A DNA stretch of 34,904 nucleotides, taken from Chitinophagaceae bacterium. GTDB lineage: Bacteria; Bacteroidota; Bacteroidia; Chitinophagales; Chitinophagaceae. The DNA is taken from NCBI GenBank assembly GCA_014380425.1, contig JACMJX010000132.1, positions 1 to 34,904 of the forward strand, in the 5' to 3' direction. Shown here in pieces: positions 6,332 through 20,741 of this stretch. The position numbers and the translations under genes are program-made. Within the stretch, counting starts at the first letter, position 1, and each line of letters opens with the position of its first letter. The notes under the pieces are model-generated. The model was given only the letters and a program-made list of their open reading frames with translations, did not search any database and was not told where the DNA came from.

Positions 6332-7258
6332 TTGAACACGGCATCAAATACAAGATTTATTAAACAGGCGGCATTAGCGCTTGGTTTCGACTACTGCGGT
6401 GTTGCGGCAGCGCAGTTTCTGGAAGACGATGCGCACCGCCTCGAGAAATGGCTGCACCAGGGCATGCATGGATCTATGACTTATATGGAGAACAATTTCG
6501 ACCTGCGGGTAGATCCCCGAAGACTGGTACCGGGCGCTCGCTCGGTAATTACTTTGCTGATCAATTATTTTCCTCCGGAGATGCAGACGGACGCTGCTCC
6601 TAAAATATCTAAATATGCCTATGGCAACGATTACCATGAGGTAATAAGAGCAAAGCTGAAGATGCTGCTGGTTAGTATCAGAGAACAGGTGGGGGACGTA
6701 AATGGAAGGGGATTCATCGATTCTGCTCCTGTTCTGGAAAGAGCCTGGGCGGTAAAAAGCGGCTTGGGCTGGTTGGGGAAGAATGGCAACCTGATCACCA
6801 GAAAGCTCGGCTCCTTCTTTTTTATAGCCACGCTGATAACAGACCTGGAACTGGAATATGATGATGCTTTTGCCAGGGACTATTGCGGAACCTGTAGAAA
6901 GTGCATAGATGCCTGCCCTACCGAAGCTATCGGTGATGATAAAGTGATCAATGGAAGCAAATGCATCTCCCACTTCACTATAGAACTGAAAGATCTTACG
7001 ATTCCTGATACGATGAAAGGGCAATTCGGTGACTGGATGTTCGGATGCGACGTATGCCAGGATGTTTGCCCCTGGAACAGATTCAGTACGCCCACAAAAG
7101 AACAGGGGTTTGCTCCGCTAAAAGAAATACTGAACTTCTCCCTGTCAGACTGGGAAGCGCTTACAGAAGAATCTTTCAAAGAGATCTTCAGAAGATCGCC
7201 ACTTAAGAGAAGCAGGTTTGAAGGGATCAAACGAAACCTTAAATTCATCAAGCCTTAG
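6332..7258 (+). CDS. queG: Epoxyqueuosine reductase QueG
   Basis: 308 aa with TTG start; ALGFDYCGVAAA, APVLERAWAVKSGLGWLGKNGNLI, and two 4Fe-4S motifs (CGTCRKCIDACPTEAI, CDVCQDVCPWNRF). Confidence 0.93.
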   Translation: MNTASNTRFIKQAALALGFDYCGVAAAQFLEDDAHRLEKWLHQGMHGSMTYMENNFDLRVDPRRLVPGARSVITLLINYFPPEMQTDAAPKISKYAYGNDYHEVIRAKLKMLLVSIREQVGDVNGRGFIDSAPVLERAWAVKSGLGWLGKNGNLITRKLGSFFFIATLITDLELEYDDAFARDYCGTCRKCIDACPTEAIGDDKVINGSKCISHFTIELKDLTIPDTMKGQFGDWMFGCDVCQDVCPWNRFSTPTKEQGFAPLKEILNFSLSDWEALTEESFKEIFRRSPLKRSRFEGIKRNLKFIKP

Positions 7259-17318: not shown

Positions 17319-20192
17319 ATGAATCTATTCGAACAGCAAGCTATTGAATTTGCAGAACGGCATATCGGGCCAGACGCGTCGGAAACAGTGCAGATGCTTA
17401 AAACGATCGGTGCGGGTTCGCTCGAAGAGCTGATCAGCAGAACCATCCCTGCCTCCATACGGCTGACGGGCGCATTGAATACCGCAGGCCCGGTGAGTGA
17501 GCACGAGTACCTTTCGGAACTTAAACAGGTGGCTTCTAAAAACAAGTTGTTTAAAACATATATCGGCCAGGGATACTACGATACCATCACCCCATCCGTC
17601 ATACTGCGGAATCTTTTCGAAAACCCGGGGTGGTACAGCCAATACACTCCATACCAGGCAGAGATAGCACAGGGAAGGCTTGAAAGCCTCCTTAATTTTC
17701 AAACGATGGTAAGCGATCTTACCGCTCTTCCTATCGCCAATGCAAGCCTGCTAGACGAAGGTACCGCTGCCGCGGAGGGAATGGTGATGCTTTTCAACAG
17801 CAAGAACAGGGCAGAGCATATAACCTCGCCTAAATTCTTTGTGGATGAAAAGGTTTTTGCGCAAACAAAAGATGTGATCCTTACCCGGGCAACCCCCTTT
17901 CATATAGAAATAGTTACCGGTAGTTTCAAAACAGCCCAGCTCGATGAAACGTATTTCGGAGCTATAGTGCAGTACCCTGACAGTGAAGGAACGATACAAG
18001 ATCACCGGTCATTTATCGAGAAGGCCCACCAGGTAAATGCCTATGTGATCATAGCCACAGACCTACTGGCTCTTACCCTGCTTACCCCTCCTGGCGAGCT
18101 GGGTGCTGATATCGCTATCGGCTCTTCCCAGCGTTTGGGCGTTCCTATGGGCTTTGGAGGGCCCCATGCGGCGTTTTTCGCTACAAAGGAGGAGTTCAAA
18201 CGCAGTCTCCCCGGCCGCATCATTGGTGTAAGCCTCGATGCGCAAGGCAATCGCGCGTTACGAATGGCGCTCCAAACCAGGGAGCAGCACATACGGCGGG
18301 AAAAGGCCACTTCCAATATCTGCACAGCGCAGGCACTCCTGAGCAATATGGCTGCTATGTATGCTGTATATCATGGCCCGGAAGGGCTTAAGAACATTGC
18401 CAAGCGCGTAAGTCTGCTCACCAGAACACTCTCTACCGAGTTGGAGCATATCGGCTACGAGGTAGTAAGCCAGCATTATTTCGATACGCTGCTCGTAAAA
18501 GCAGATACGGAACTGATTCGCGTAGAGGCAGAAAAAAGAGCTATCAATTTCAACTATATCAGCAAGGAACTATTGACCCTGTCTCTCGACGAAACAACCA
18601 CCCGGCAGGATGTGGTCGATATCCTTGAAGTGTTTTCATCGGTAAAGCATATAGATGTTGCCGGAGCTGTTTTCGAAACCCAGGGCAACCTGGATAATAT
18701 TCCTTCAGCCTTAACCAGAACCTCCGGTTACCTGGCGCACCCTGTGTTCAACACGCATCACAGCGAAAGCCAGATGATGCGGTATCTGAAATCGCTCGAA
18801 AACAAAGATCTCTCGCTCAATACATCCATGATCGCCCTGGGCAGCTGTACCATGAAGCTAAATGCTGCTACGGAACTCATTCCAGTAAGCTGGCCAGAGT
18901 TCAGCAAGCTGCACCCTTTTGCTCCGGCAGACCAGTGGAAAGGCTACCAGCAAATCATTTCCGAACTGGAAAGCTGGCTGAGCAACATTACGGGGTTCGT
19001 CGCTACTTCCTTGCAGCCGAATAGCGGGGCCCAGGGCGAATACGCCGGGCTTCTTGCCATTCATGCCTATCATGCGCACCGAAACGAATCGCACCGTAAT
19101 ATCATCCTCATTCCTATTTCTGCGCACGGCACCAATCCTGCCAGCGCGGTAATGGCAGGCTTCAAAGTGGTGGTTACCAAATGCGACGAGGCGGGAAATA
19201 TAGATATGAACGATTTAAAGGCCAACGCGGAGAAACATGCTGCCCATCTTGCGGGGCTTATGGTTACCTATCCTTCCACCCACGGGGTATTCGAGGAAAG
19301 CATCAAAGAGATCTGCCAGTTGATTCACGATAACGGAGGGCTGGTGTATATGGACGGCGCCAACATGAACGCGCAGGTGGGCCTCACTTCCCCTGGAAAT
19401 ATAGGTGCCGATGTTTGCCATCTCAATCTTCATAAAACCTTCGCGATTCCCCATGGCGGCGGCGGGCCGGGAATGGGGCCCATTTGCGTTAATGAAAAGC
19501 TGAAACCCTATCTGCCCGGGCACGTAACGCTCGGCACACAGAAGGCCGTAAGCGCAGCGCCTTATGGGTCGGCAAGTATTCTACTGATAAGTTATGCTTA
19601 TATCAAGATGCTGGGCGCAGAGGGCCTTAAAAGATCCACTGAATACGCTATCCTGAATGCAAACTACATGAAGGCAAGGCTGGAGCAATTCTACAAAATT
19701 CTGTATTCCGGTAAAAACGGCACTTGTGCCCACGAATTCATCGTCGATTTGCGTCCTTTCAAGCAAACCGCAGGCATAGAAGCTGAGGATGTGGCAAAGC
19801 GCCTGATGGACTACGGTTTTCATGCTCCCACGTTAAGCTTCCCCGTTGCGGGCACTATCATGATAGAACCCACGGAGAGCGAAGATAAGGCCGAGCTGGA
19901 CCGTTTCTGCGATGCTCTTATTAGTATTTACCACGAGATAAAGGCGATAGCCGATGGCAAAGCCGACCGCGCCGATAATCCCTTAAAGAACGCACCGCAC
20001 ACCCAGCAGGTGATTACGGCTGATGAATGGAGCCACAGCTATTCCCGGCAGGTGGCGGCCTTCCCGCTTCCTTACGTGAAGGAAAACAAATTTTGGCCGA
20101 GTGTAAGCCGGGTTAACAATACATATGGCGACAGAAATCTGATTTGCACCTGCGAACCTATAGAGAGTTTTGCAGAAGCTGGAGTTAACTAA
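17319..20192 (+). CDS. gcvP: Glycine dehydrogenase (aminomethyl-transferring), P protein
   Basis: 957 aa; [66 protein letters not shown]-lysine region [23 protein letters not shown]. Confidence 0.98.
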
Positions 20193-20214: not shown

Positions 20215-20248
20215 AGAGGATGCATCAAAGCTGATGCATCCTCTTTTT
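20215..20248 (+). terminator. Rho-independent terminator after gcvP
   Basis: AGAGGATGCATC-aaagct-GATGCATCCTCT followed by TTTT. Confidence 0.9.
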
Positions 20249-20327
20249 GCTTTGCACCTACCCCGAACCTAGAATAGCGGGAATGTAGCATTCGTGTTGT
20301 ATCGATTTCTTTACATTTCGGTGATAT

Positions 20328-20431
20328 TTCGATCATCCTAGGTAGATCCTAGGTAGATACTAGGTAGATCCTAGGTAGATTCTAGCTAGATATACGTAGT
20401 ATCTACGTAGGATCTACCTAGGATGAACGAA
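20328..20431. repeat. Long imperfect palindrome/hairpin overlapping an 11-bp tandem array (CCTAGGTAGAT-type units)
   Basis: Positions 20328-20370 pair with 20389-20431 at 39 of 43 positions (mismatches 20332/20427, 20352/20407, 20363/20396, 20367/20392) around an 18-nt loop. 11-bp phased units run from 20337 to 20446. Confidence 0.9.
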
Positions 20432-20519
20432 GGATTTACCTAAGATAGAGATGCTAGTAACGTTATATTAAGCTGGGCGGAATGGCAATTGCACTAGTAT
20501 GTATTGTAAAAAAGGATTT

Positions 20520-20741
20520 ATGAACAGAGAAAGCATTAATAAACCAGCGGTAATACCACCGGATAATTTACAGGATCGCGGTGCTGAAGACGGCTCAAGC
20601 CGGCCAGGAGGTAATTTGCCGCCAGAACACAAGGGAGAACCCGATGGGGCAACCGTGTTAATTGGCAGTGACGATAAAGGCCCGGAGGAGGCCGGCGTAA
20701 TGCCTAATAAGGGCGAGCAGGACGGAGGCGCAGGTAGCTGA
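20520..20741 (+). CDS. Small hypothetical protein, predicted disordered, Gly/Pro/Glu/Asp-rich
   Basis: 73 aa from MNRESINKP; purine-rich AAAAAAGGA just upstream of the ATG; followed by a candidate terminator. Composition gives little independent coding support. Confidence 0.5.
   Translation: MNRESINKPAVIPPDNLQDRGAEDGSSRPGGNLPPEHKGEPDGATVLIGSDDKGPEEAGVMPNKGEQDGGAGS

Follow-up and report, generated by a model that had tools for sequence, protein, structure and literature searches.

Downstream of gcvP, in a stretch of 34,904 nucleotides from a Chitinophagaceae bacterium (the window, i.e., the whole of the DNA analysed here), lies a CTAG-rich array of 11-bp units that can also be drawn as a long hairpin. 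The question raised by this locus is whether the element is a protein-binding site on the DNA, a structured RNA, a mobile repeat, or the product of a duplication or assembly accident. A preliminary description of the sequence considered several of these options and stated that no named class of feature fitted cleanly. This remains correct for Rfam, where the window gave no match and a known Rfam RNA was rejected for this reason, and for the literature searched, in which nothing relevant was found on CCTAGG or AACGAAGGAT repeats.

Architecture of the element and its copies in the host genome

The array consists of ten contiguous 11-mers (20337–20446) and contains four CCTAGG palindromes and seven CTAG tetramers, all as previously described; Tandem Repeats Finder also reports a period of 11 at 20335–20391, with 91% matches. 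Direct reading and a repeat search both recovered the proposed hairpin, with arms of 43 nt that are complementary at 39 positions (91%) and separated by 18 nt, and the repeat search gave three further pairing registers offset by whole units (Table 1). Folding of the region 20300–20520, which had been suggested as a check, yielded −89.3 kcal/mol versus −50.4 ± 4.3 kcal/mol for dinucleotide shuffles, i.e., a structure far more stable than expected from composition (z −9.1; 0/200 shuffles as good). The element was said to lie after the gcvP terminator; indeed, both the end of the gcvP ORF, at 20192, and the terminator-like hairpin are upstream of it, and similar hairpins precede several of the other copies in the anchored alignment. 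On the opposite side, the element is separated from a DUF4397 gene by the 80-aa ORF, which starts 52–75 bp past the array.

Table 1. Parts of the window element and its immediate context, in window positions
Feature	Position	Strand	Basis
Intrinsic-terminator-like hairpin of upstream gcvP (context, outside the element)	20215..20248	+	Sequence
Leader, weakly conserved	20292..20336	+	Anchored alignment of copies
5' arm of the near-perfect hairpin register of the preliminary description	20328..20370	+	Repeat search
Left arm, five direct 11-mers (nCTAGGTAsAT)	20337..20391	+	Five such units, free of indels, in all complete copies
3' arm of the near-perfect hairpin register of the preliminary description	20389..20431	+	Repeat search
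Right arm, five 11-mers of inverted polarity (sTACCTAGnAT / AACGAAGGAT)	20392..20446	+	11-bp frame of the left arm; gap 0 between arms in 17/17 complete copies
Unit 9 of the window copy, GAACGAAGGAT	20425..20435	+	Identical to the direct-repeat unit 5' of the partner gene in genera without CTAGG arrays
Tail, weakly conserved: degenerate eleventh unit, then divergence	20447..20476	+	Anchored alignment
Small ORF of 80 aa, 3' of the element (context only, distinct from the partner protein)	20499..20741	+	No Pfam match

BLAST searches with 20328–20446 located copies with different flanks on 18 host contigs, and a 22-nt array pattern matched the host genome 103 times, while its backward control gave no match. 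The 18 copies represent about 16 loci, every one of them intergenic, in convergent, tandem and divergent gene settings, and hence the multi-copy intergenic element that had been listed as one of the options is what is observed. C151 and C308 have a common upstream flank and are likely to be one locus split by the assembly. The ybeY-mnmG locus (gene names by eye) seems to be represented twice, by C3 and C388, in versions from two strains; the divergence of these versions (L009 and L024) suggests a strain mixture in the assembly. The host genome is a fragmented assembly, 84% complete, and contigs end in or near several copies (C151, C303, C308 and C3), as repeats usually cause. This last circumstance would suit a chance duplication, replication slippage or an assembly error at one locus; nevertheless, the element is present in 18 places with different flanks, and the same architecture appears in many genera and in isolate genomes. 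The recurrence of the array refutes these origins, including the random local duplication and the assembly slip named in the preliminary description, and the probability left to them is practically nil.

The 17 complete copies, of 110 bp, align without a single gap and show 56 variable columns and at least 82 base changes, with pairwise identities of 73–94%. Every one of them is formed by five plus five units, both arms follow one 11-bp frame in 17/17, and unit positions 10 and 11 (AT) are 94–99% conserved in both arms. A leader of approx. 45 bp is common to most copies (consensus GTAgNATTTnCGTCRTATTC...TCATCAT; the window copy carries a variant with different spacing), and the right end fades. 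Given that an 11-bp unit corresponds to one helix turn, one face of the DNA would present the same recognition bases ten times, once per turn, with five units in one orientation and the remaining five reversed.

IS3-like transposase ORFs end 91–143 bp 5' of the array at two loci, L020 (568–1862, host contig C316) and L101 (Chitinophaga sedimenti). The leaders at these loci have a similar IS-end-like sequence (GTGTAAGACATACC / GTATAAGACAAACC), and an IS may target the element.

Related arrays and the pairing of the two arms

The exact unit pair is absent from 398 other genomes of the family, among them the only congeneric one, and the exact 22-mer had no match in other named genomes. Relatives were found only with a relaxed pattern (CTAGGNNNATN repeated), for which the matches listed from 85,000 species genomes were mostly from Bacteroidota, with many copies per genome. 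The search of the host and its relatives proposed in the preliminary description revealed, in addition to the 18 host contigs, multi-copy arrays in Chitinophaga, Flavihumibacter and Paraflavitalea, in which direct units are followed by inverted units in one continuous 11-bp frame. Both arms share this frame in nearly all copies read from the three genera; a shift of 1 bp was seen in one copy from Flavihumibacter. The sequence of the unit depends on the genus and both arms change together (GGTASAT/TACC, GGTTCAT/GAACC, GGGTTAT/AACCC), and the duplex energies of the arms range from −49 to −64 kcal/mol within groups and from −35 to −53 kcal/mol between groups.

A structured RNA, either a small RNA or a 5' or 3' UTR hairpin of about five A-form turns, perhaps bound by the small partner protein or cut by RNase III, would agree with the very stable fold and with arms that remain complementary within each genus despite a unit that differs between genera; A-form RNA likewise has a pitch of 11 bp, and the array lies about 50–140 bp before the start codon of the partner gene described below. 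However, when the 17 copies were compared in the correct register, 80.5% of the alignment cells were paired versus 80.0% after shuffling (106/500), the covariation score was reached by 56 of 500 shuffles, and with fixed arms the pairing within copies was no better than between copies (P 0.13). An excess of ungapped within-copy pairing was seen, but its centre had been optimised on each copy and it was not counted; a within-copy test of duplex energy, which partly carries the same bias, gave P values of 0.04, 0.015, 0.23 and 0.009. At fixed positions, C to G and T to A changes in the right arm disrupt the pairing. In other genera the homologous arrays consist of direct repeats and lack an inverted arm, neither an Rfam match nor a promoter motif was identified, and several copies follow a terminator. 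The copies conserve the unit and its phase, not the copy-by-copy pairing, and the arms are complementary because both bear the same unit in opposite polarity. The structured small RNA that had been contemplated is thus improbable. A cruciform, contemplated as well, loses ground to the same covariation result and to the arrays at the partner genes of other genera, which often have no inverted arm.

Rumen Bacteroidales MAGs (L065–L168; RGIG10247 and UBA3834 loci) carry dozens of CTAGGTCAATA arrays with a conserved right end, GGATTCAAGGCTTAGTATCAGnngGTTAC (e.g., L133 at 6446–6560, L157, L071 and L143). At apparently orthologous loci, the number of units (3 versus 9) and the 5' half vary; hence, the suggestion that the array is prone to slippage is borne out in these genomes and fails in the host, where all complete copies have five plus five units. 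Heptamer tandem repeats, (CACTAAA)n, adjoin the rumen 11-mer arrays in the left flanks of L079, L125, L167 and L113. The Chitinophagaceae partner protein is absent from the rumen Bacteroidales with similar arrays, and therefore 11-bp CTAGG arrays can exist without it.

A small basic protein encoded beside the arrays

An all-against-all comparison of flanking ORFs yielded one recurrent close neighbour of the arrays, present in the host (C347), in C. sedimenti and in a Chitinophaga MAG. The host gene encodes 98 aa and is located about 50 bp 3' of the array. Members of this family have approx. 100 residues, are basic (pI 9.3–10.4) and share only five invariant residues (M1, A2, G14, Q46 and A56), with nothing resembling a catalytic set. 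No significant match was detected in Pfam, NCBIfam, PHROGs, PADLOC or PDB sequences, and the protein is absent from phage and plasmid records. AF2 models (pLDDT 86–87, pTM 0.57–0.61) predict a small beta-sheet (strands 14–16, 20–25 and 28–33) followed by three helices, with no ribbon-helix-helix predicted; a Foldseek search gave no PDB match with E below 0.6 and nothing significant among viral models.

The protein and the arrays occur together. Among 18 chosen genomes, it is encoded in 13/13 with arrays and in 0/5 without them. In a sample of 219 genomes of the family that was searched for both, the protein was found in 8/8 genomes with CTAGG arrays (E ≤ 1e-39) and in 4/211 of the others (1e-30; Fisher 4e-12), or in 8/8 versus 23/211 (P 7e-8) with a cut-off of 1e-6 that includes paralogues of ~190 aa, figures that come from one family, are not phylogenetically independent and partly reflect shared ancestry. 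Among 345 genomes drawn from the class, only three others passed 1e-10, mostly with long paralogues, and none had a leading 11-bp period upstream.

In nearly all genomes with the partner gene, an 11-bp array lies 5' of it. Such an array precedes 15 of the 16 first-found genes of the short family, with the best dyad 76–139 bp before the ATG; the sole exception is a strongly similar gene of Paraflavitalea sp. CAU 1676 (G164, also G423), which has no array upstream, though its genome has arrays elsewhere. A second, more distant gene, in G165, shows period 11 upstream with no palindrome. Period 11 ranked first of 15 periods upstream of 29/32 short-family genes, downstream of none of them (0/32), and upstream of 3/11 long paralogues. 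In several genomes without CTAGG arrays (G064, G175, G065, G025, G154, G162, G215 and G151), the gene is preceded by direct repeats of GAACGAAGGAT or a near-variant. A three-unit ACGAAGGAT pattern was present in 13/26 gene-bearing genomes and in 0/21 without the ~100-aa gene (P 1.3e-4; control 0 everywhere). Many solitary arrays are seen again in G109 (Chitinophaga-like by its matches) and G064; in many genera the array at the gene amounts to a few direct units, with solitary copies scarce or undetected. No second neighbour gene recurs in 32 loci, nor is there a motor gene (parM).

Two further observations concern these upstream regions. A ~190-aa paralogue at L289 (host C169) has direct 11-mers (ACAAGGATAAG) upstream, which most of the other long paralogues examined do not have. 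At L261 and L260, the GAACGAAGGAT array 5' of the partner gene reads as overlapping tiny ORFs, ATG-AAC-GAA-GGA-TGA, with the stop and start overlapping in ATGA, probably by coincidence.

On balance, we lean towards the explanation that the arrays are same-face binding sites on the DNA for a new family of small proteins, one array being at the gene itself and the solitary ones dispersed. The ~100-aa basic protein, encoded directly 3' of one array (C347), probably binds them, and the window element would be a solitary copy of a dispersed intergenic docking array. A same-face binding array had been among the initial proposals and is now the best supported of them, given the strict 11-bp phase without indels, the arms in one frame, and the small basic protein that co-occurs and is co-located with the arrays. 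The array at its own gene would allow the protein to regulate its own expression; the promoter signal between the two was not above shuffles, and so it is the position of the array that points to autoregulation. The solitary arrays may give additional docking points to a protein that organises the chromosome or resembles a partition adaptor, or else be a repeat that persists through the partner protein.

The main rival, which is possible but rather doubtful, is a selfish mobile intergenic repeat (REP-, MITE- or BrickBuilt-like) whose protein would be a mobilising factor or the cargo of a parental element, with no host function. It would account for dispersed homologous copies with a common leader and core, for one copy beside a gene and many solitary ones, as with RAYT genes and REPs, and for the same-genus genome (G078) having neither array nor partner gene; the differences in unit number and half-elements at orthologous rumen loci also speak for it. 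Nevertheless, by eye, the anchored alignments showed neither clear terminal inverted repeats nor clear target-site duplications, the host genome has no Y1_Tnp/RAYT, the five invariant residues of the protein form no catalytic-like set, and solitary copies are few or undetected in the many genera with a few direct units at the gene.

Comparison with known repeat and partition systems

BOX elements of Streptococcus pneumoniae contain a variable number of internal boxB units; these and ERIC-type palindromes are intergenic, hairpin-forming and dispersed, as are the arrays of the host, and they are not known to have an 11-bp period or a partner protein. The TAACTGA direct repeats of Beggiatoaceae are likewise abundant and intergenic, with a suspected regulatory role, but their unit is 7 bp, they have almost no inverted copies, and the abstract mentions no linked small protein family (PMC4679880).

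The nearest precedent for a selfish repeat, also from Bacteroidota, is the BrickBuilt MITE of Porphyromonas gingivalis, with about 19 intergenic copies in which 23-nt tandem repeats, variable in number among strains, lie between a leader and a tail (PMC4596501). It resembles the present element in its dispersed intergenic copies, internal tandem repeats, leader and tail. In contrast, the unit here is 11 nt, BrickBuilt has IS5-like terminal inverted repeats and target duplications of 4–5 bp, and the inverted second array and the cognate protein gene are not among the features given in the consulted part of that report (PMC4596501).

Tandem 11-bp units beside the gene of a small DNA-binding protein are also found in ParR/parC, the type II partition system of plasmid R1; for the arrays, binding is what we infer from phase, co-occurrence and location. 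To judge by the titles of work attributed to Dam and Gerdes and to Jensen et al. in 1994, ten repeats reportedly flank the own promoter of the R1 par operon, which is said to be autoregulated. Tandem repeats of 10–20 bp next to the gene of the binder define such systems, and here period 11 has that position at the partner genes. For ParR of R1, the minimum is two 11-bp repeats (PMC9426499). However, the arrays are chromosomal, at about 16 dispersed loci with half of each inverted, there is no ParM-like or other recurrent neighbour, and the predicted fold of the partner is not ribbon-helix-helix. The arrays might work as parC does with ParR, but the system is not a member of that class. Rather tentatively, we propose an undescribed chromosomal system of Chitinophagaceae, in which a basic protein of a new family and new fold would assemble on arrays of one turn per unit and be autoregulated, with solitary arrays as docking or organising sites, and with neither a motor nor a ribbon-helix-helix fold.

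REP/REPIN sequences and their RAYTs share with the arrays the short palindromic, dispersed intergenic repeats and a single cognate protein gene flanked by a copy. They differ in that the units here form 11-bp tandem arrays and the partner is not a Y1 (HUH) transposase. PF01797 (Y1_Tnp) had no match in the host genome (G000, 84% complete), for which RAYT/REP was rejected, or in Flavihumibacter sp. ZG627 (G400, also G182), and in some of the other genomes with arrays it gave no more than weak or single matches. Dispersed intergenic repeats of bacteria are usually orphans with regard to a binding partner, RAYT-REP being the main exception; the family described here comes with a specific, testable candidate and, if binding is true, it would extend these systems by a DNA-binding family, and perhaps a fold, not previously described, as well as by a novel type of chromosomal array in a common phylum.
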